NCBI GenBank assembly: GCA_023251775.1
Contig: JAHEYC010000014.1
Coordinates: forward strand, 1-55,793
Source of the DNA: Sphingobacteriaceae bacterium
GTDB taxonomy: Bacteria; Bacteroidota; Bacteroidia; B-17B0; Aurantibacillaceae
Direction of reading: 5' to 3'
DNA length: 55,793 nt
Below are positions 1,831 through 31,791 of the stretch, piece after piece. Position numbers and translations under genes: made by a program. The notes beneath the pieces are model-generated. The model worked only from the letters and a program-made list of their open reading frames with translations. It ran no database searches and was not told where the DNA came from. Each line of letters begins with the position of its first letter. The first letter of the stretch is position 1.

Positions 1831-4800
1831 TTATTTAAGTAGTGTCACATGTCCCACCAGATCGTGCGCTTTTTTGTTAACGTCAACTACATTGGCTTTC
1901 CAAACATAAACGTCGTCTTTAATTGGTTCGGTACTTCCTTTCGCAGTTCCGTCCCAGGCAACATCCATATCGTCGCTTTCAAATACTTTATGTCCCCAAC
2001 GATCAAAAATGGTTATATGGAATTCAATGATATTATATCCTTTCGCTTTAAAGCCGTCGTTTGTTCCATCGTAATTTGGCGTAAAAGTATTTGGGATATA
2101 AATGGCGTACGATTGTTTTAATCTCAAAACTCGTGATGTTGTATCGGTGCAACCATGTTTATTGGTTACTACTTGAAAGATCACCGGTTTTTGTTTATCA
2201 AGATTAGTAAAGGTATGAGTGAAATTATTTATCAAGTAAATACTTCCATCGTTGATATAGAATTTTACTTCATCTGCTCCAACAGCATCGCTGCTAATAG
2301 TTGATATAGGTTCTAATTCATCCAATTCATTTGGATCAGCAATAAAAGAAGCAATTGGTTTTGGATACACTTCTACTGCATGATGATTAATGTATGTTGC
2401 CATACATCCGCTATCACTTACTAATTTTAACGTAACATCATATTTGCCGGTGTTAAAGCAGTGTGTTGGGTTTTTTGTGTACTCAGGTTGCGATCCATCG
2501 CCAAATAACCATTGGTAAGTATTGATGTTTCCTGTGCTTATAGTAGATTGATTGGTAAATGTTACACACACACGCTCACAACCTTTTGGATTACTCATGG
2601 TAAAGGTTGGAACCGGTTTTGGATTTACATACATGGCCTTCGACATTACATTTGCGCAACCGTATTCGTTTTGTACTTCTAATTTTACAAGATAAACACC
2701 ACTGGCAACATAATTATGCGCGGCGTATGAATACACATTGTTCACATTTCCATCGCCATAATATTGCCAAGCGTAGGATGTGATATTTCCTTGAGGTGAA
2801 GTGGAAAGATTGGTGAATTCAGTACGATCTCCCAAACAGGTTGGACTCGCTTTAAAATTAGCCACCGGATTTGGATATACTACTACAGGATTTGTTACAT
2901 TGCTAGGACAACCATTATTAGAGATCGCCATCAATTTGCAATTGTAATTTCCGTAGTTAGGATAAACTAACGATGGACTCACAGTTAATGTATCATCCCA
3001 TATTCCATCATTTTGAAAATCCCAACGCCATTGTGCAACATAACCGCTGCTAATAATGGTGGAGTTATTAAATTGTGTGGCTTGGTTGTGGCAAGCTGCA
3101 TTACTTTGGAAACCAACTTGCGGTACAGCATACACACTTATGGTTTTTGTTTGTTGAGCACTGCAACTGTAATTTGAATACACCATTAAACTCACTGTAT
3201 AATTACCCGGTGAAGGATAAAAATAAGTTGGTGTGTGCACATACGCTACAGCATTTTGTCCGAAGGTCCATAAGAACGTATTTAAAGATGCATTTTGTAC
3301 GCTGCTATTATTTGTGATATACAATTGATCCATGGCACAACCATTTGGTATTGTAAAATCAGCAACGGGAATTGCGTGCACCGTAACCGTTTTAATGATG
3401 GTGTTCACACAATTCATATCGCTTACGGCGGTTAATTGTACATTGTACGAACCGTAACTTGGAAATGTATAGTTTGGATTTATTGCTGTGCTTGTATTAA
3501 AGCCATTAAAGTTCCAAATATAATTGGTAATATTTCCCGGACTTATAGTTGTTTGATTGGTAAAATTATTAGCCTGACCAAAACAAACATTTGTTGCAGC
3601 AAAATTAACCGCAGGTAATGGATTTACATTAACAATATTAGTATAAGTTGCTGTACATCCTAAATTACTTACAACGGTTAATGTAACTGTTTTTGGTCCC
3701 GGACTTGTATATTGCGTACTTGGATTCATCATATTTGAAGTTTGAAGATTCGCAAGATTCCAATTATAACTTACAATGCTTCCGATAGGAATGCTTGATG
3801 TATTTGTAAATGTGATCAAACTACTTTGGCAAACATTATTTCCTGCAAACGATGCAATAGGAGCAGGATAAATGGTAAGTGTATTAACGCCTGTGTTTGT
3901 ACAGCCAAAATTTGAAGTGGCAGTTAAACTTACATTATACGTTCCGTAAGTTGGATATGCTGCACTTGGATTTGTAAGATTTGATGTTGTACTATTTCCA
4001 AGATCCCAGGCATAGGATGTGATATTACCTGATGCAATGCTGGAATTATTTATAAAATTATAATTTAACGCACAAGGCGAACTGCCTTGCGGAGTGAATG
4101 AAACGACAGGCATAGGATAATTCACAACTGTATATGTAAATGTTGGTCCTTGGCAATTAGTGATCATAGTTGTTGTACAAGTATAAACACCGGCTGCACT
4201 TACATTTAAACATTGACTTTGAACATTGTTTGTATTTGGGCCATTCCATGTATACGATCCAAAACCTGTTGGTCCGCACACAAAGCTTGATGAACCTGCA
4301 CACATACTATATGAATTTCCTGTTGTAAATGCCGCGCAAACACCATCTATATAAGCGTATCCAAAGTGTCCGCCTAAAGCGCAATCGTAAGTTGTAAAAC
4401 GAATGGTCACATTTTGTCCGATGTAATTTGTAAGGTCAACAATTACATTTGTCCATGGTTTATAAACCACATTTCCAGGACCATTTAAAAAGCCGGGAAT
4501 ATTTTGTCCGGCCGATACATTATAATAAGTACAAGGAATTGCTGCATTAGTTGTATCAAACATCTCAACCACAAAAGCAGGTTGTTGCGCTTGCGTGTGT
4601 CCAGGATCTTCAAAAACAACAGCATATTTATAAGTGAAGTTTGCATTAGCAGCTGTAACAAAAAATGTTTGTTCAACTCTATCTGCTTCACCGTTCACGT
4701 TACTATCTCCAATTCTTAGCGAGAAATTACCACCCGGAGCAACGATCGGAAAACCTCCGAAAGGATCCACAGGATTAGCATTTGATGCCGCAGTAATTAC

Positions 4801-6160: not shown

Positions 6161-7393
6161 GAAGACTGCCTTTAACTCTTTTATATCATCATTTACATTA
6201 AACAGACTTGTAAAAGGAACCTTTGTAATTTTTAGGAACACAATTGTTGATGCAATAAAGGTAATGAAGTAAGCAATGTTAGTGGTAATGGCTGCACCCA
6301 TAACGCCATGTTTGGCAATTAAAAATGGCGCAAGGATCAGCGTGGCCGCAAAACCAAAGAAATTATAAAAGCTCACCATTTTTATATTTCCAATTCCCGA
6401 AAAGTAATGACTAATAATTCCCGAGAAACTTAAAAAGATAATTCCCGGTGAAAGCATAAGCATGATGGATTTACTTTGAATGAATGTATCTCCCAATAAA
6501 TACGTAAATAATTGTACCGGTAAAAAATAAATAAGCACAACAGCTAATATGCTTACTAAAAAACAAAGTTTGGCAAATATCAAGGTAAGCTTGATGCTAT
6601 TATCTGTTTTTCCTAAAATTGCTACGCGCGAAAGTAGAATAGGGGTCACCGAATTGGTGATTATCAATACTGCTTCTATTAATGATGATGCCGTTGAATA
6701 CAAACCAACATCGGGTTTTGTTTCTAAAAGATAATAACTCAAACGTCCGCTTAAAAGATACATTAATACTCCTGCCTGGCAGTATAAACCATTTTTTACT
6801 ATTTGACCAAAATGGAATTCGTTCTTTTGATCAGGCTTTAAAATATAAGCAAGTACAAAGTAAGAGGAGATGAGAAAAGAAAGTGCGAACGAAATAATAA
6901 GTGGCCATATATATGAATCGAGTGTGAAGTTGCCGGAGAAATTGGTGAATACAAATATCCCAACTAATAAAGCAACAGGTTGAAAGATGCTGAGAAAATT
7001 ATACATCTTGTAATATTCCTTTGCAAGAATTACAACGCAATTAAATGTATTTAAGATAATGATGATCGATGCCACAAACAAAAGCCAAGCGTATTCGGAT
7101 GGTTGTTTATGAAGTAAAACCAAAATAAGATTTGTCCCAACACTTGAAATAAGCGTGAACAACATCCCATTCAAATAAATTTTATTGATATTGAATTTGG
7201 CGATAAAATGTACAAGACTATAACCCGTGTAGATCTCGTTGATCATTTGAATGATGGCAATATTGAGCATGATCAAACCTATCTCTCCGCGCGTGGAGAT
7301 CCCCAAATACTTTGCAGTAACAATTAAGATAAGAAAGTTAACTACCGCAACACTTCCTTTGGTGAATAAACTTTGTATGACCTTTTTTAGCAT
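6149..7393 (-). CDS. Wzx-type oligosaccharide flippase (MOP superfamily)
   Basis: The 414-residue protein is strongly hydrophobic throughout, with about 12 predicted membrane helices and short loops. The N-terminus (LFTKGSVAVVNFLILIVTAK) is typical of the polysaccharide biosynthesis/flippase family of the MOP superfamily. Proteins of this kind flip undecaprenyl-linked glycans across the inner membrane. It is the last gene of the dlt-type operon, 106 bases after dltA. This suggests, by inference, that it exports the polymer or lipid-linked glycan that the Dlt proteins acylate. Its substrate cannot be deduced from sequence. Confidence 0.85.
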   Translation of the reverse strand: MLKKVIQSLFTKGSVAVVNFLILIVTAKYLGISTRGEIGLIMLNIAIIQMINEIYTGYSLVHFIAKFNINKIYLNGMLFTLISSVGTNLILVLLHKQPSEYAWLLFVASIIIILNTFNCVVILAKEYYKMYNFLSIFQPVALLVGIFVFTNFSGNFTLDSYIWPLIISFALSFLISSYFVLAYILKPDQKNEFHFGQIVKNGLYCQAGVLMYLLSGRLSYYLLETKPDVGLYSTASSLIEAVLIITNSVTPILLSRVAILGKTDNSIKLTLIFAKLCFLVSILAVVLIYFLPVQLFTYLLGDTFIQSKSIMLMLSPGIIFLSFSGIISHYFSGIGNIKMVSFYNFFGFAATLILAPFLIAKHGVMGAAITTNIAYFITFIASTIVFLKITKVPFTSLFNVNDDIKELKAVFSGD

Positions 7394-7499: not shown

Positions 7500-9011
7500 T
7501 TAGCTGTTGAATTGCTTTTTTAAATACTCTTCAATGAGCTTATTCTTATCAATTTTATGACTGGAAGAGTAGGGGAAGTTGCTTACGATCGAAATATCAC
7601 CGGGGATCATATAATAAGGTAGACTCTTCTCCATTGAAGGCATCAATTCTTTTAGTAACTCTTCTTTTTCTATAGGAGTTTTCATCATCACAAAACTAAT
7701 TATCTTCTTCACCTCATTATTTCGTTTTAATGCCACCGTAACAGCGTCTGAAACTAAATTATTCTTACAAATGGTTTGACTTATTTCATTTAGTTCGATC
7801 CTAAATCCATTCATTTTAATTTGGTCATCATTTCTTCCTAAACAAAACAACATGCCGTCCTCATAATAAGCAACATCACCCGATCTAAAAGCTCGCATGC
7901 CCTTATGAGTAAAGAATTTTTCTTTATTGAATTCTTCTCTTTTAAAATAACCAATAGAAACGTGCTCGCCAACAATAATTAATTCACCTTCCTTTTCGTT
8001 CGGATCGCTCTTTTCCACATAAAGTATACTTCCGTCCATGGGATAACCAATGGGCAGTAATGGATATTTTTTAATTATATCGTTGGTTATTTCTATTAAC
8101 GTTGTAACTATGGTTGCTTCGGTTGGACCATAGGCATTTAATATCCTTGCATTTGCAAATGAGTTTTTTAAAGATGCGCATGTTCGGTTTGGTAATTCTT
8201 CACCAATGAACAAAAATGTTCTTAAAGAAGGAATGTTAACGGTTTTAAAATCGGGATGTCGAAGAAATAGAAAAACAAAGGATGGCGTTGATGTCCAAAC
8301 TGAACATTTATATTTATTAAGTCGATCAAAAAATTCGTTTTGATCTTTCACCATATCGGTAGATATTAATACAAGTGAAGCGCCATGAGCAAATGTATTA
8401 AGAACATCGCAAAGAGAAACATCAAAGGTGAATGGAGCCTGATTCATGAATACATCATCAGATGAAAAACTAAAATCTTTTTTTACCCAATCTATAAATG
8501 CTAGTATTGAATTGCGAGTTATCTGAACACCCTTTGGTTCGCCGGTGGAACCTGAAGTGAACATAATGTATTGAAGAGGATCGGAAGGATCATGATCAGT
8601 TTTAGTTTTATGATCCGGGCTATGGTGAATGGTTTGTTTAAGATCTGCATCAATAGTAATTGCGATCTCAACATCTAAAGGTTGGTTTGAACAATTAATG
8701 AGCACTTGTGCTCCGGTGATCTCGATTATTTTTTTTATTCGCTCTACCGGATAGATCCGATCAATTGGTATGTAGGTTGTTTTAGAGTGAATGCAAGCTA
8801 AGATCACAAGGGGGTAGAAACATTCTTTATGTCCATAAATAATTATCGGGTTGCCTTGTGGAATATGGAGTTCCTTAAATAATTCAGCTAACTTCTCAGT
8901 TTTAATTTTTAAGGTTTGCCAATCAATTTCAGTATCGCTGCCTGCGATCGCAAGTTTAGTTGGATCGATCTCCGTCTCTATGAATTTACATGCTTTAAGA
9001 TCGTATTTCAT
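7500..9011 (-). CDS. dltA: DltA-like D-alanine:carrier protein ligase
   Basis: This is a 503-residue stand-alone adenylation enzyme, the usual DltA length. It has the P-loop-like A3 motif MFTSGSTGEPKG at residues 150-161, the A5 motif NAYGPTEAT, the A7/A8 motif RSGDVAYYEDG ... GRNDDQIKMNGFRIEL, and a C-terminal HKID with the catalytic lysine near 486. Family members adenylate D-alanine and load it on the phosphopantetheine of DltC. Its place in an operon with dltB, dltC, dltD and dltX supports DltA over a generic NRPS adenylation domain. D-Ala specificity is inferred from context, not from the pocket residues. Confidence 0.88.
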   Translation of the reverse strand: MKYDLKACKFIETEIDPTKLAIAGSDTEIDWQTLKIKTEKLAELFKELHIPQGNPIIIYGHKECFYPLVILACIHSKTTYIPIDRIYPVERIKKIIEITGAQVLINCSNQPLDVEIAITIDADLKQTIHHSPDHKTKTDHDPSDPLQYIMFTSGSTGEPKGVQITRNSILAFIDWVKKDFSFSSDDVFMNQAPFTFDVSLCDVLNTFAHGASLVLISTDMVKDQNEFFDRLNKYKCSVWTSTPSFVFLFLRHPDFKTVNIPSLRTFLFIGEELPNRTCASLKNSFANARILNAYGPTEATIVTTLIEITNDIIKKYPLLPIGYPMDGSILYVEKSDPNEKEGELIIVGEHVSIGYFKREEFNKEKFFTHKGMRAFRSGDVAYYEDGMLFCLGRNDDQIKMNGFRIELNEISQTICKNNLVSDAVTVALKRNNEVKKIISFVMMKTPIEKEELLKELMPSMEKSLPYYMIPGDISIVSNFPYSSSHKIDKNKLIEEYLKKQFNS

Positions 9012-9046: not shown

Positions 9047-10207
9047 TTAAAATGGACAACGTCCGCTAAATATATACAAAGCAAATGCAGCTAAATTGAA
9101 CATGATAATAATGCTAATTGTTTTTACCGTTAGGGAATTCAAATTGCCAAATAGAACATCTTTTCCTTTCTTCTTGCATAGTATAACATAAGTATTATGA
9201 ACGGCCGAGAAGATCCCGAACAGAACACCGCTTAAAATATAGTTCGATTTAAAACCATTCCAACAACCCATTAGCAAGAAGGTTAATATCAACGCAATGT
9301 TTTGTCGCATTATTGGATATTGTTTCAAACCCTTTTTTCTTGTTAAGAACATATAAAGTGGTGTAAAAAAATATTCTTTAAGCCATTCACCTAAACTAAT
9401 ATGAAATCTTCTCCAGAAATCTTGTGGATTAACCGCTAAAAAAGGATTTGTAAAGTTAACAGGCACATTCATCCCCATCATCTTTCCGATACCAAGTGCC
9501 ATGAATGAATAGCCTGCAAAATCGAAGAACAAATAGAAATAGTAAGCATACATGTTATTTGCCATGTGCAATAGTTCTTTACTTGTTTCCGGAAATAAAT
9601 TTAACCAATAGCGATCTATCACTTCGGCAACAATGTATTTAAAAATAATTCCTTTTAGAAGCGAATTCCAACCTGCTATAAAATTATCAGTGGTGATCGA
9701 ACTAAAACCAATATCTTGAGAATTTTTGAATCGCGAATATTTTTCAATAGGTCCAATTAACAGCGTTGGTGTAAATGCTAAAAAATTAAAGTAAGTAATT
9801 GGGTCGGCCATTTTTTCATTTGGCGCTTTATCCATGTAATAGCCTATTATTCTAAAGCTGGCATACGATAACCCTGAAAATGAAATAAGATCATTCAGCT
9901 TGAACGGAAATGAATAAAGTAAGATGTCAAATTTCACAAGAAGCATTGGCGTTAACAAGATCAAAATGCCCCATAACCTATTTTCGAATTTAAATACGTT
10001 GGCAACCATAAATGTAAATAAATAGGAAAGTAAAATAAGAAGTAAGAAATGATAGGGTTGCGGATAAACAAAAACTAAGAACGTGAGATTTAACACTGCT
10101 AAAATATATCTGTAATAGACGTCTTTTAAAACATATTTAGCTCCCACCAGAATGGCAATGAAAAAAGCCATGATGATCAAAAATTCGAAGGAGCTGAACG
10201 GAAGCAT
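9047..10207 (-). CDS. dltB: DltB-like MBOAT acyltransferase
   Basis: The 386-residue polytopic protein has about 11 membrane helices and the MBOAT core QDFWRRFHISLGEW, which contains His269. In DltB the family moves the D-alanyl group from DltC across the membrane. The second MBOAT histidine, normally in an LWHG-type motif about 47 residues later, is Asn317 here (GCWNGF, codon at 9257-9259). The C-terminus stops at IFSGRCPF and lacks the F-x-Y-x-x-F tail seen in the other MBOAT of this window. That tail is supplied by the separate DltX gene two bases upstream. Assignment to the DltB branch is supported by the neighbours. Confidence 0.88.
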   Translation of the reverse strand: MLPFSSFEFLIIMAFFIAILVGAKYVLKDVYYRYILAVLNLTFLVFVYPQPYHFLLLILLSYLFTFMVANVFKFENRLWGILILLTPMLLVKFDILLYSFPFKLNDLISFSGLSYASFRIIGYYMDKAPNEKMADPITYFNFLAFTPTLLIGPIEKYSRFKNSQDIGFSSITTDNFIAGWNSLLKGIIFKYIVAEVIDRYWLNLFPETSKELLHMANNMYAYYFYLFFDFAGYSFMALGIGKMMGMNVPVNFTNPFLAVNPQDFWRRFHISLGEWLKEYFFTPLYMFLTRKKGLKQYPIMRQNIALILTFLLMGCWNGFKSNYILSGVLFGIFSAVHNTYVILCKKKGKDVLFGNLNSLTVKTISIIIMFNLAAFALYIFSGRCPF

Positions 10208-10209
10208 AA

Positions 10210-10359
10210 TTAAAATTGCTGATAAATAAATTGAGTTGAGGACCTTTCCTTATTATTCGGATTCTTATTCAATGGAGAGTATAAATAATATAAAAGCATA
10301 GCCACAGCAGAATAAAGAATTAAGTTTTTTAAAAATAGAACCGCGCCTGAACTTTTCAT
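10210..10359 (-). CDS. dltX: DltX-like microprotein (49 aa)
   Basis: A 50-codon ORF starts at ATG 10359-10357, overlapping the dltD stop as ATGA, and stops two bases before the dltB start. The product has a short N-terminus (MKSSGAVLFLK), one membrane helix at about residues 12-28 (Tyr-rich at its end), a polar linker and the C-terminus STQFIYQQF. Length, single helix and terminal F-I-Y-x-x-F are the hallmarks of DltX. In Firmicutes DltX is needed for teichoic acid D-alanylation, and its C-terminal Tyr motif has been proposed to shuttle D-Ala from DltB to DltD. Gene finders easily miss it. The tight coupling to dltD and dltB strongly supports it as real. Confidence 0.88.
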   Translation of the reverse strand: MKSSGAVLFLKNLILYSAVAMLLYYLYSPLNKNPNNKERSSTQFIYQQF

Positions 10360-11555
10360 TTTGTTAGTTTATAGGTTTCAACAATAAATTTATCTACTTT
10401 ATAAAATCCATATTTACTTAAATGTCCGATATCAAATAATATTCCTTTTTCAAATGTGGTTGAATCCGAATTCCAGAGGTTCAAATAAGGAAAGTTATTT
10501 TTTTTCAATTCTGTTTCTACGATCGCTACGATGGGAGACAGGTCGCTCGCGTTCTTAAAATAATACGGATTTAAGGGAGATATAAAAAAAGAAGCATTCA
10601 CTTTCTTTTCTTTAAGAAGCTTAAGAAGTTCTAAAAAATCCTCCATTTCAGTATTGTATTTGATCTGAACAGGAGATACAAAGCTTCTTTTTCCATTGAT
10701 GTTGTTAGTATAATAGGTGTTATCAATGCTCCAATTGTTATTAGTTGATCTATTTAATTGATCTTGTTTGCTTACTGTAAACAAACTATCCCAATTAATG
10801 ACAACAGATTCCTCCCTAATGCTCTTTCTTTCAAAAGAATTAGTTGTAGTAATAGAATTTGTTTTCAAAAGATCCGATCTTAATGAATAAAGCAAATCAT
10901 CTATGGCGATAATAGGTGCGTATAAAAATTGATGCAAGAAACTCTTTGACGACCGGCTTTTAAAATGCAAAAGTTTAATGCTTAGGTCGGGACTCACAAT
11001 TTCACCATAAAATGAGGAGATCCTATTTGCTTCATAAGCTTTAAACGTATCAATTGAATCGTTCATTAATATTGAATTCAAGAAACGCGACGAATTAAAT
11101 TCAAGAAATTGTGAAGACGTTGTTCCGTTAGCGCTTACTTCATGAAACCATCCCGGAGAGATACCGATAAGTATCGGAGCGTTCTTTAAACGGGGTTCGT
11201 TAGCAAGTAGCTGAGAGAAAATTGAAAAACTTTGATTTCCCGCATGCCCAACACCTACCACCTTTGTATTAAAATGGTCTGTGATAAAATTATAAGGTGT
11301 TGCTTCTGTATTTACCCCTAACTCGGAAGATCCAAGCATGAAAATGGTCTCATGATCAGCGCGGGATGATAGAAATTCATTTTCGTAAAGTACATTATCA
11401 TTAAAATTTGGGATGTTTCTAAATGAAGGGTCAATAGGACTAGGAGATTCTGCAGTAAAAAGACTTGAATTTATAGTTGACTTGAATGCCAGTAAAAATG
11501 TAAGTGTGAGCGCACAAATTAATGGGAGAAAATAAATTAGAAGTATTCTTTTCAT
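10356..11555 (-). CDS. dltD: DltD-like SGNH-family D-alanyl transferase
   Basis: This 399-residue protein has one N-terminal membrane anchor (residues about 4-24) and a large extracytoplasmic domain. The GSSEL motif at 75-79 supplies the serine nucleophile of the DltD/SGNH fold. ISPGWF follows at about 133, and the C-terminal D375-x-x-H378 in FDIGHLSKYG completes the triad. DltD performs the last transfer of D-alanine onto the acceptor polymer outside the inner membrane. It lies eight bases after dltC, and its stop overlaps the dltX start. Confidence 0.88.
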   Translation of the reverse strand: MKRILLIYFLPLICALTLTFLLAFKSTINSSLFTAESPSPIDPSFRNIPNFNDNVLYENEFLSSRADHETIFMLGSSELGVNTEATPYNFITDHFNTKVVGVGHAGNQSFSIFSQLLANEPRLKNAPILIGISPGWFHEVSANGTTSSQFLEFNSSRFLNSILMNDSIDTFKAYEANRISSFYGEIVSPDLSIKLLHFKSRSSKSFLHQFLYAPIIAIDDLLYSLRSDLLKTNSITTTNSFERKSIREESVVINWDSLFTVSKQDQLNRSTNNNWSIDNTYYTNNINGKRSFVSPVQIKYNTEMEDFLELLKLLKEKKVNASFFISPLNPYYFKNASDLSPIVAIVETELKKNNFPYLNLWNSDSTTFEKGILFDIGHLSKYGFYKVDKFIVETYKLTK

Positions 11556-11563
11556 TTGTGAGT

Positions 11564-11791
11564 TTAAAACTTTTTTAATGTTTCAACTATTAGATCTATA
11601 CTGTCAAAATGTTCTTCTCTTATGAGATATTGTGGTATGGTCTTTCCAATTTTTCCTTCGATCGCAACTATCAGGTCAACCACCAGTATAGAACTCAATA
11701 CGCCCGACTTGATAAGAGAATCTCCGAATTGTACCTTTACAAATGCCAGTTCCATGATCTCATTTTGAATGAATATTTTGAGGTCATCCAT
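11564..11791 (-). CDS. dltC: DltC-like acyl carrier protein
   Basis: This 75-residue acyl carrier protein is the first gene of the dlt-type operon. The expected phosphopantetheine site is the Ser in SGVLSSILVVDL (around residue 30). The Asp that normally precedes that Ser (LDS in DltC, DSL in other carriers) is Ser here. The rest (LIVAIEGKIGKTIP) fits helices II-III of a carrier protein. It should carry D-alanyl thioester from DltA to DltB. The family call is from length, context and pattern. The missing Asp slightly lowers certainty about modification. Confidence 0.78.
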   Translation of the reverse strand: MDDLKIFIQNEIMELAFVKVQFGDSLIKSGVLSSILVVDLIVAIEGKIGKTIPQYLIREEHFDSIDLIVETLKKF

Positions 11792-29221: not shown

Positions 29222-30625
29222 ATGCTTTTTAGTTCATCCATATTTTTGTTTTATTTCTTGCCTTTACTGCTTTTGGTTTATTTCTGCATTCCAGGAATAA
29301 AACTCAAGAATTATACTCTTCTTCTTTTCAGTTTAATATTTTTTATTTGGGGAGGCGCTTTTTTCACGCTTATTCTTTTGCTCTCAATTATCTTCAATTT
29401 TTTTACGGGAAAACTTATCGAACGATCGTACTCTAAGATTTCACTCGGCATTGCAGTTGGGGGAAATTTATTGGTTCTGGTGATCTTTAAGTATGCAAAC
29501 TTTCTCATAGATAATTTGAATGTATTATTTTCTTCTGTTCATTTTGATACAATCGTTCCCCCTGGTATAATTCTTCCCATTGGGATCTCGTTCTATACAT
29601 TCCATTCAATAAGTTATAATATAGATGTTTTTAAAAAGAGATCAAAAGCACAAGGGAATATTCTTGATATGGCTCTTTACATTATTTTGTTTTCGCAATT
29701 AGTGGCAGGACCAATAATTCGCTACAACGTTTTTGCACCTCAATTATTTGGAAGAACTCATACGTTTGAAAAGTTCATTTCGGGAATTGAGCGCTTTATT
29801 ATTGGTTTAGGAAAAAAAGTTTTGATCGCTAATACAATTGGACGTTTGGCAGATGATGCATTTTCGCAAGATGCACATCACATGGATCTTTTATTTTCTT
29901 GGACAGGCGCTTTATGTTACACTTTTCAGATCTATTTTGACTTTAGCGGTTATTCGGATATGGCCATTGGATTAAGCAGAATGTTTGGATTTGAATTCCC
30001 CGAGAATTTTAATTTGCCTTATATCGCAACAAGTATTAAGGATTTTTGGAAAAGATGGCACATAAGTTTATCGAGTTTCTTTAAAGATTATCTTTATATA
30101 CCCTTAGGCGGAAATCAAAAAGGAAATAAGAGAACGTATTTAAATCTATTGATCGTTTTTTTCCTCACAGGTTTATGGCATGGCGCCAATTATACATTTA
30201 TTGTTTGGGGAATGATACATGGTTGTTTTTTGTTATTGGAAAGAACCTCCTTTGGAAGTTTTCTTAAAAAACTCCCTTCTGTATTAAAAGGGGTATACAC
30301 TTTTTTTGTTGTGATGATGGCCTGGATCCCTTTTCGATCTTCGAGTATGGATTATTCTTGGCATTATTGGAAAAGTTTAGTTGTTGGGAAGATCAATTTA
30401 GATTTAGTCTCCAGTTATTTTACTACAGATCTTATTATCGCCGTTGTAATTGCCATTTTCCTTTCTTTTAATTTCAATGGATTTTTATCAAGGATCAAGA
30501 TCAATTCAGGTTTGCAAAGCATGGGCGATCTTACAAAGGCAGTATTTTTGTTGACCATTCTTTTTTTTAGCGCAGTTTATTTAATGTCGGGAACTTATAA
30601 CCCTTTTATTTATTACCAATTTTAA
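29222..30625 (+). CDS. AlgI-like MBOAT O-acyltransferase
   Basis: The 467-residue membrane protein has about 11 helices and both MBOAT histidines: His280 in DFWKRWHISLSSFFKDYLYIP and His320 in TGLWHGANYTF. It resembles AlgI, which feeds acetyl groups across the inner membrane for exopolysaccharide O-acetylation. The very C-terminus reads NPFIYYQF. This F462-I-Y464-x-x-F467 tail equals the terminal motif of DltX (FIYQQF), fused to the MBOAT. The next gene overlaps by one base (TAATG) and encodes an AlgJ/X-like partner. Confidence 0.92.
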   Translation: MLFSSSIFLFYFLPLLLLVYFCIPGIKLKNYTLLLFSLIFFIWGGAFFTLILLLSIIFNFFTGKLIERSYSKISLGIAVGGNLLVLVIFKYANFLIDNLNVLFSSVHFDTIVPPGIILPIGISFYTFHSISYNIDVFKKRSKAQGNILDMALYIILFSQLVAGPIIRYNVFAPQLFGRTHTFEKFISGIERFIIGLGKKVLIANTIGRLADDAFSQDAHHMDLLFSWTGALCYTFQIYFDFSGYSDMAIGLSRMFGFEFPENFNLPYIATSIKDFWKRWHISLSSFFKDYLYIPLGGNQKGNKRTYLNLLIVFFLTGLWHGANYTFIVWGMIHGCFLLLERTSFGSFLKKLPSVLKGVYTFFVVMMAWIPFRSSSMDYSWHYWKSLVVGKINLDLVSSYFTTDLIIAVVIAIFLSFNFNGFLSRIKINSGLQSMGDLTKAVFLLTILFFSAVYLMSGTYNPFIYYQF

Positions 30626-31791
30626 TGAGGACAGAGAAATATATATTATGTTTTGGTTTTTTTATCCTGATCAGCTTTCCGGTGATCAATAATTTATTGA
30701 ACATCGTTAAACCGGCTTCAAATACTGAGAATCGCGCTTTGAAAGTCATGCCAAAGACAGATACATGTTCGGTTGATACATATATAAAGGGATTGGAAGG
30801 ATTTCTTATTGATCATACAAGTATTCGTAATTATGCCATTCGATTTCACAATAAATTGAATGTGTTTGTTTTTAGGAGCAGTCCGGTTAATGTTGAAGCT
30901 TTTATTGGAAAAGATGGTTGGTATTATTTTTCGGGTGAGGAATTAAAAACTTTTGTTGGCACAGAACTTTTTACCGAAAAAGAACTTGGTGAATTTAAGA
31001 ATGAAATGCTCAGACGAAAGGATATCATTGAAGAAAAACATAATTCGCATCTGTTTGTTGCAATTGTTCCAAATAAAGCAAATATTTATCCCGAATTTAT
31101 GCCTGATCATATTATAAGATCAGAAACAGGTGGTTATGGTAAACAGATACTAAATTATCTTACAAAGAATGGCATTTCGACAATTGATCTATACGAACCT
31201 TTAACAAAAGCTAAGCAAACTCACGCCGTTTATTACAAAACTGATAATCATTGGAACGATTTTGGTGCTTTTATTGCAAGTAATGTCATTTTGAAGGAGT
31301 TCAGAAAAGTTGAGCCAAAGGTTCAGGAATTAGATGTTAATTCTTACAAAGTGAAGAGAGTGGAAGAAAAAGCAGGCGATATTGCCAAGATGTTATCGGT
31401 TGAGGACGTATTATCTGATGAGAACTATATTCCAATTCCATTATTGGGTGAAAAGAGTCATCAAATGGATCAAAACAAATATAAATGTATTAAAGACTTT
31501 GCTTATCCATGGGAGTATGAACATACTCGCTATACGAATAACGATAGTTTGCCAACCATTTTGATCATTCGGGATTCTTTCGGCGCAAAGCCATTTAAAT
31601 ATATCTCCGAACAAAGTAAAAAATGCATCACCATTTTTGATGCGTGGCATTATGGATTAAATGAAGAGATAATTGCTTCAGAAAAGCCTGACATTATTTT
31701 ATACCTAATTCTAGAGAGCCAGCTTAAGAATTTGATGAAATATCAAAAAGCTGAAAAAGGCCTTATAGTAACTGATTCAGCCTCGCAATGA
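30625..31791 (+). CDS. AlgJ/AlgX-like SGNH (DHHW family) acetyltransferase-like protein
   Basis: The 388-residue protein has one N-terminal membrane anchor (residues about 5-25) and a periplasmic SGNH-like domain. Asp207 and His209 lie in YKTDNHWNDFGA (residues 206-210), and Ser318 lies in IRDSFGAKP (316-320), a triad like that of AlgX/AlgJ and the DHHW family. With the preceding MBOAT it should transfer acyl groups to a glycan outside the inner membrane. The start overlaps the MBOAT stop. The 3' end overlaps the convergent small ORF by 29 bases. Confidence 0.88.
   Translation: MRTEKYILCFGFFILISFPVINNLLNIVKPASNTENRALKVMPKTDTCSVDTYIKGLEGFLIDHTSIRNYAIRFHNKLNVFVFRSSPVNVEAFIGKDGWYYFSGEELKTFVGTELFTEKELGEFKNEMLRRKDIIEEKHNSHLFVAIVPNKANIYPEFMPDHIIRSETGGYGKQILNYLTKNGISTIDLYEPLTKAKQTHAVYYKTDNHWNDFGAFIASNVILKEFRKVEPKVQELDVNSYKVKRVEEKAGDIAKMLSVEDVLSDENYIPIPLLGEKSHQMDQNKYKCIKDFAYPWEYEHTRYTNNDSLPTILIIRDSFGAKPFKYISEQSKKCITIFDAWHYGLNEEIIASEKPDIILYLILESQLKNLMKYQKAEKGLIVTDSASQ

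Follow-up and report, generated by a model that had tools for sequence, protein, structure and literature searches.

FxYxxF tails fused to, or split from, the MBOAT proteins of a Bacteroidota genome, and a possible MBOAT-independent acyl-shuttle microprotein

Contig JAHEYC010000014.1 of a Sphingobacteriaceae bacterium, analysed at its full length of 55,793 nucleotides and referred to here as the window, is one entire contig (C70) of a 3.6-Mb draft genome in 144 contigs and encodes two MBOAT proteins in operons 19 kb apart. The first, an AlgI-like protein of 467 residues, ends in LMSGTYNPFIYYQF followed directly by the stop codon, with NPFIYYQF as the closing letters; its tail in the plus-strand open reading frame (ORF) 29222-30625 reads MSGTYNPFIYYQF, and positions 30590-30625 hold the final 11 codons and the stop, with Tyr464 as the tyrosine of an FxYxxF motif. 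The stop codon shares one base with the start codon of the next gene, which encodes an AlgX/AlgJ-like SGNH protein. The second MBOAT belongs to a dlt-like operon on the minus strand, with the gene order dltC-dltD-dltX-dltB-dltA. This DltB-like protein lacks the tail, and the DltX-like microprotein encoded beside it ends in RSSTQFIYQQF, with Tyr46 in the motif. The original prediction described these three C-termini correctly, in letters and in position (Table 1), and read them as parts of a common relay in which a C-terminal tyrosine would accept an acyl group from the MBOAT and hand it, as a shuttle, to the SGNH partner.

Table 1. Genes and motif codons discussed in the text; positions are those of the window, except where a census locus (L100, L109) is given.
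Feature	Position	Strand	Details
AlgI-like MBOAT with fused C-terminal tail (putative acyl shuttle)	29222..30625	+	467 aa; PF03062, E 2.7e-31, over cut-off
FIYYQF codons (F462, Y464, F467), stop codon directly after	30605..30622	+	ORF translation
AlgX/AlgJ-like SGNH partner	30625..31791	+	388 aa; PF16822 (ALGX), E 8.1e-23
DltB-like MBOAT without tail	9047..10207	-	386 aa; ends IFSGRCPF
DltX-like microprotein, between dltD and dltB	10210..10359	-	49 aa; PF12459, E 7.5e-4, 19.4 bits
FIYQQF codons of DltX-like protein (F44, Y46, F49)	10213..10230	-	ORF translation
DltD-like SGNH partner	10356..11555	-	399 aa; PF04914, E 5.6e-43, over cut-off; NCBIfam LTA_DltD 113.8 bits, below 150
DltC-like carrier protein	11564..11791	-	75 aa; no Pfam match; NCBIfam acyl carrier protein/DltC weak, under cut-offs
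DltA-like adenylating enzyme	7500..9011	-	503 aa; PF00501; PRK04813 (DltA) 443 bits, below cut-off of 476
DUF5989 microprotein	L109:15310-15459	-	PF19451; C-terminal FxYxxF
DUF5989 microprotein	L100:1661-1810	+	PF19451; C-terminal FxYxxF

Seven MBOAT genes were found in the genome to which the window belongs, and the six that are not DltB-like encode proteins ending NPFIYFRF, NPFIYYQF, QQFIYFQF, NTFIYFQF, RQFIYSQF and QPFIYFQF; by Pfam, an SGNH-type neighbour accompanies three of the six, namely the window protein, the one on contig C25 (PF16822) and the one on contig C78 (two GDSL proteins). The survey of MBOAT C-termini that the original prediction had proposed was made over 31 genomes, 29 of which have an MBOAT, using the loci of 150 of the 153 MBOAT matches (one of the other three is the second piece of the C78 gene) and a purpose-built profile to identify the MBOAT-like ORFs in them. 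The motif proved to be enriched: among the matches listed, an exact C-terminal FxYxxF is present in 132 of 142 MBOAT-like ORFs and in 6 of the 7408 other ORFs of at least 30 residues that end with a stop codon in the same loci, and in none of the 703 other ORFs of at least 150 residues. These six non-MBOAT proteins are four DltX-like proteins and two members of the family DUF5989, discussed below. The tail letters are FIYFQF or FIYFRF in 118 of the 132 tail-bearing MBOATs. Ten MBOAT-like ORFs were not counted as carrying the tail; one runs off its contig, and the nine that end otherwise comprise four DltB-like proteins, each accompanied by a DltX-like protein encoded between dltD and dltB, the proteins of loci L053, L063 and L070, and two fragments (L056 and L057). 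A second set was retrieved from viral_contigs with patterns lacking the tail; here FxYxxF closes 54 of 61 MBOAT ORFs, compared with 2 of 4259 non-MBOAT ORFs, of which one is a DltX and the other apparently a chance match. Among the seven exceptions in that set, L364 is a DltB with an accompanying DltX ending HFIYNEF, L365 is a tail-less MBOAT of 406 residues, and L357, L360, L361, L362 and L363 are seemingly cut or broken.

Three kinds of exception deserve a separate description. In L056 and L057, both from genome G011, the MBOAT genes are each in two pieces, the last of which carries FIYxxF, and represent broken genes or assembly errors. In L053, a small one-helix frame at about 6162-6311 (plus strand) ends in AQFRYMQW just 3' of the neighbour of the tail-less MBOAT; this neighbour appears SGNH-like by eye and has no Pfam match, and the cluster also holds two frames that resemble adenylating enzymes by eye, with no family search made. 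It is possible that the small frame of L053 is a further split shuttle, with Trp as its final residue. In L365, a small frame ending ERYVYGGF, with its stop at 4599 (plus strand), is located behind the tail-less MBOAT and is another possible split shuttle, with Tyr as the first residue of the motif.

The AlphaFold model of the AlgI-like MBOAT (46 sequences; pLDDT 93.1, pTM 0.92) adopts the MBOAT fold and matches DltB (6bug, 414 residues) with a Z-score of 30.7 and a root-mean-square deviation of 2.7 Å over 359 aligned residues, drawn from residues 1-381 of the model; structural matches other than MBOATs, all with Z < 6, were disregarded. His320, the conserved MBOAT histidine, is invariant in our alignments A3 (50 fused MBOATs) and A6, as are F462, Y464 and F467; the rows of both alignments were picked for carrying the tail, so the tail counts in them are not evidence. 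Ahead of the tail, the model contains helices at residues 353-372, 376-388, 393-399, 402-415, 418-428 and 432-455, among which 402-415 and 432-455 are the longest past the stretch covered by DltB and are, judging from the model, both predicted to span the membrane. The alignment of a profile of the 50 fused MBOATs with the solved DltB stops at profile position 378, at a conserved W-I-x-F (F371 in the window protein). Profile and structure thus place the end of DltB at about residues 371-381 of the AlgI-like protein, approximately 86-95 residues ahead of its C-terminus, and the claim that the DltB-like protein stops just where the AlgI-like protein continues is off by that distance; an equivalence of IFSGRCPF and LMSGTYNPF is ruled out by both methods. 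Some 86 further residues beyond about residue 381, including the two long helices, lead to and bear the tail, which is in line with passages of PMC12148441 that place the motif of other MBOATs on two extra helices absent from DltB and describe PatA with comparable extra helices before its tail. The stretch 29222-31791 accordingly combines the features of the fused PatA/AlgI type: the MBOAT fold with its histidine, an exact C-terminal FxYxxF, two extra helices and an SGNH gene. An internal FKYANF at residues 89-94 of the same protein would mislead a motif search that is blind to position.

The DltX-like protein, for its part, is a microprotein with a single helix predicted from hydropathy and an FxYxxF end, encoded beside dltB and dltD, and its gene lies between dltD and dltB in all four DltB-like loci. 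A DltB-like protein was found at E 1e-60 in 4 of 40 genomes of the genus; across 296 genomes of the phylum, with at most six candidates scored per genome, the other matches listed from the DltB search sit in frames of at least 457 residues, the length of a fused MBOAT. The second active-site histidine is retained in these proteins, His269 of the window protein corresponding to His289 of DltB. At the expected phosphopantetheine site, the window DltC-like protein has LSSILVVDL and its relatives in L051 and L054 have LLDSISTVDL; the Asp ahead of the expected Ser is thus replaced by Ser in the window.

That the same tail is fused to one MBOAT and split off as a microprotein for the other, as the original prediction had it, is supported by these data and agrees with PMC12148441, parts of which place the FxYxxF shuttle on DltX for DltB and within the chain of other MBOATs, crediting Schultz et al. 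2023. The tyrosine relay proposed for the window is that same published mechanism; the finding is therefore, in its essentials, already known, and the window adds members to it only. The relay has been demonstrated experimentally for PatA-PatB of C. jejuni/N. gonorrhoeae (Anderson et al. 2025, PMC12148441), where, according to the account in portions of that paper, PatA labels itself from acetyl-CoA, a Tyr-to-Phe change in its C-terminal FxYxxF abolishes the label, and PatB accepts both acetyl-Tyr and acetylated FIYANF as donors. What the present study establishes directly is the presence and conservation of the tails, the partner genes and the MBOAT fold. Sequence, gene order and fold together indicate that both window MBOATs very probably take part in acyl relays like the MBOAT-SGNH systems already described; acylation of the tyrosine, transfer to the SGNH serine and the identities of the acyl groups would follow by analogy with the literature. 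In such a relay, the AlgI-like MBOAT would pick up an acyl group on the cytoplasmic side, with acetyl-CoA as the most likely donor and acetyl as the most likely group, and would move it to Tyr464 of the same chain, facing outward; the tail would present acyl-Tyr464 to the Ser of the AlgX/AlgJ-like protein of the overlapping gene, which would hand the group to a polysaccharide of the envelope or the extracellular space. For the dlt operon, the tail would reside on the separate one-helix DltX, held between DltB and DltD, and its cargo would be D-alanine or a different amino acid that DltA activates and DltC carries.

AlgI functions with AlgJ/AlgX in alginate O-acetylation, and the window MBOAT likewise adjoins an SGNH protein of the AlgX family; inspection by eye of the ORFs between 26 and 36 kb revealed no alginate genes, and no search for them was made. 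The AlgI system is listed among MBOAT-SGNH pairs in a part of PMC12148441. The window system also resembles PatA-PatB, the peptidoglycan O-acetyltransferase with an MBOAT, two extra C-terminal helices, a terminal FxYxxF and an SGNH partner, and differs from it in its AlgX-like partner (PF16822). With DltB-DltX-DltD of teichoic acid D-alanylation, as portrayed in sections of the literature cited here, the dlt-like operon shares the tail-less MBOAT, the FxYxxF microprotein encoded between dltD and dltB, and the carrier and ligase genes, whereas its host belongs to the Bacteroidota, in which teichoic acid is not expected, and it has an Asn in place of His336 and several components under curated cut-offs. 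OatA and other AT3-SGNH acyltransferases also pass an acyl-Tyr intermediate to an SGNH domain but, in the description given in part of PMC12148441, use a different membrane domain, whose Tyr is located between helices where conservation is poor and not in a C-terminal hexapeptide.

Several observations weigh against assigning both window MBOATs to such relays. In the DltB-like protein, Asn317 (W-N-G) occupies the position of the catalytic His336 (W-H-G) of the solved DltB, a residue called invariant in a passage of PMC11035591; W-N-G is found in all four DltB-like proteins of the genus (the window and its relatives L051, L052 and L054) and W-H-G in all 50 rows of A3, and the two other tail-less MBOATs, L364 and L365, keep W-H. 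The DltB-like half of the relay may therefore differ. The DltX-like protein scores 19.4 bits against a curated Pfam cut-off of 25 and the DltB-like protein 224.6 bits against the NCBIfam TIGR04091 cut-off of 375, hence the "-like" in both names, and the DltD- and DltA-like proteins also remain under NCBIfam cut-offs. The neighbours of the MBOATs on contigs C43 and C133 have no Pfam match, and the neighbour on C48 matches only DUF1574, slightly below cut-off, which we take to be an SGNH-like family. The fused MBOATs L063:3322-4887 and L070:3097-4575 (both minus strand) end in MPIYLQF, with Pro for the first Phe and with the Tyr and the last Phe retained, and FRYMQW and YVYGGF have to be accepted as variant tails for L053 and L365 to fit. 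Finally, the 2024 DltB paper, PMC11035591, regards the role of DltX as unclear in the portion of its text that concerns it, and suggests a possible regulation of DltB.

Other explanations of the tail fare less well. A break just before the tail, by which DltX would simply be the separated C-terminal end of an AlgI-like ancestor, is an improbable origin: one transmembrane helix plus a hexapeptide does resemble the last helix and tail of the AlgI-like protein, but DltB ends well ahead of these, and further helices, two of them long, intervene. It is very unlikely that the tail is instead a structural, regulatory or docking element, whose aromatic residues occupy the funnel of the MBOAT or anchor its SGNH partner while the Tyr stays unacylated. 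All three aromatic positions, and not the Tyr alone, are conserved, as a docking peptide would also require, and PMC11035591 considers, in the same portion, that DltX may regulate DltB by binding an aromatic cluster in it; against this, the PatA tyrosine is itself acetylated, and the labelling and donor experiments cited above indicate that the acylated Tyr feeds PatB. A chance likeness of two short hydrophobic ends, rich in Phe, Ile and Tyr and following the last transmembrane helix, can practically be dismissed, because amino-acid composition predicts an FxYxxF end at 1e-4 per ORF, against the census proportions given above with all six non-MBOAT cases DltX-like or DUF5989, even if FxYxxF-stop shows no enrichment as a raw DNA pattern in the genome (105 matches versus 123 for the reversed pattern) and a non-terminal FxYxxF occurs about once per MBOAT (151 in 130 proteins), so that only the C-terminal position is meaningful.

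With the acyl relay as the preferred reading, the census extends the shuttle principle to a clade in which a genome can have as many as ten MBOAT matches and the tails are near-identical. Since one genome combines six fused shuttles with one split shuttle, it is hardly the tail that keeps the pathways apart, and specificity would probably be located in the contact between MBOAT and SGNH protein.

The two tail-bearing census ORFs that are neither DltX nor MBOAT match PF19451 (DUF5989) with E-values of 5.7e-24 and 1.6e-25. DUF5989 consists of 49 residues with one predicted helix, and its F44-x-Y46-x-x-F49 has the same pattern, position and length as in the window DltX; the three residues are invariant in 18 of 18 aligned proteins. 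A larger set of loci (L198-L277), the best 80 of 562 confirmed relatives in genome_contigs, was collected with two search patterns, one of which contains the tail: FxYxxF ends the protein in all 80, including all of the 71 that also match the tail-free pattern. Residues 12-18 include 3 or 4 Lys/Arg, the hydrophobic stretch covers approximately residues 17-37, and the part that follows carries no net positive charge, a pattern from which the tail is expected outside. A match in L197, under cut-off and with no tail seen, was discarded. The comparison of DUF5989 with DltX by hhalign gives a probability of 0.4 per cent; the sequences are too short to decide, and we therefore claim no shared origin. 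The two microproteins are alike in length, helix and C-terminal motif, and part of the DUF5989 loci also have an SGNH gene nearby; they differ in that no sequence relation is detectable between them and no MBOAT was found in the fetched stretch of the DUF5989 loci.

The same MBOAT profile that found the 61 ORFs in viral_contigs gave no match in any of the 80 loci within the fetched stretch, which extends some 10 kb to either side in 39 loci and less far in 41; on this basis the idea raised by L100 and L109, that DUF5989 has an MBOAT for a partner, was rejected. No MBOAT match was obtained in 29 of the 50 DUF5989-bearing genomes searched (50 of 80), several of them small or partial, and genome G021, 99 per cent complete, has DUF5989 and no MBOAT match. 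The recurrent neighbours are different. A NodU-type carbamoyltransferase is present in 76 of the 80 loci and an SxtJ protein also in 76, both of them on the same strand within 3.5 kb in 72, in gene orders that occur 31, 23, 17 and 1 times; the Pfam label was confirmed for two carbamoyltransferases and four SxtJ proteins, one SxtJ being under cut-off. The SxtJ model (pLDDT 89.5, pTM 0.59) has three long helices and no match in the PDB with E < 0.001; Pro80 alone is invariant, and Trp54 nearly so.

SGNH proteins are concentrated around DUF5989. Among 18 neighbours picked by hand, 15 match GDSL/SGNH families, some weakly, with one unmatched, one methyltransferase and one glycosyltransferase, a proportion that is not a rate because the ORFs were chosen by size and look. 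A profile seeded with 14 SGNH proteins near DUF5989, which may miss other SGNH proteins, assigned to this class 17 of 79 ORFs of at least 250 residues within 2 kb of DUF5989 and 16 of 156 at 2-4 kb, followed by 5 of 143, 2 of 128 and 1 of 126 in the successive bins beyond 4 kb (Fisher p 1e-8 for 0-4 versus 6-10 kb). An SGNH protein lies within 4 kb in 35 of the 80 loci. A hydrophobic stretch near the N-terminus is present in 36 of 37 such proteins (at least 250 residues, within 4 kb), and a crude test found the letters GDS in 21 of them and DxxH within the last 60 residues in 11. The ORF between SxtJ and the MBOAT in L109, presumed to be an SGNH protein, has no Pfam match, and the same applies in L248.

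On the basis of its sequence surroundings, the DUF5989 neighbourhood is a candidate for the anatomy expected of an MBOAT-free shuttle system, and we tentatively suggest, as a reading somewhat short of even odds, that DUF5989 is a second kind of acyl-shuttle microprotein, independent of MBOAT and with NodU, SxtJ and SGNH partners. In this proposal, NodU would produce, in the cytoplasm, a carbamoyl (or related acyl) group in activated form; SxtJ together with DUF5989 would carry this group across the membrane as carbamoyl-Tyr46, and an SGNH protein would deposit it on an extracytoplasmic acceptor. Some of the data speak against it. In 45 of the 80 loci, some shortened by a contig end, no SGNH gene was found nearby; only Pro80 is invariant in SxtJ, so that no catalytic residue is proposed; and, as regards independence from MBOAT, L100 and L109, loci that had been fetched for their MBOAT, have a tail-bearing MBOAT within 3 kb of DUF5989, and in genome G018 the two are about 2 kb apart. 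No paper mentioning DUF5989 was found in the open-licence PMC literature (Schultz et al. 2023, outside that scope, may mention it), and no NodU/SxtJ/SGNH relay is evident from the titles and abstract openings of the open-licence PMC papers listed on these subjects. This lead is the part of the analysis that could be new: if true, a DUF5989 shuttle would add a third system of acyl transfer across the membrane to MBOAT-SGNH and AT3-SGNH, would give a widespread uncharacterised family a testable job and would provide surface carbamoylation with a route across the membrane.

DUF5989 scores over cut-off in 18 of 60 genomes, a sample that includes the genome of the window, where no such match was found. 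Among 200 genomes from the phylum to which a Pelagibacteraceae record belongs, DUF5989 is over cut-off in 47, with all of these matches reaching the last profile position, and matches from the scan include Bacteroidetes, cyanobacteria, Pelagibacteraceae, Omnitrophica and other records.

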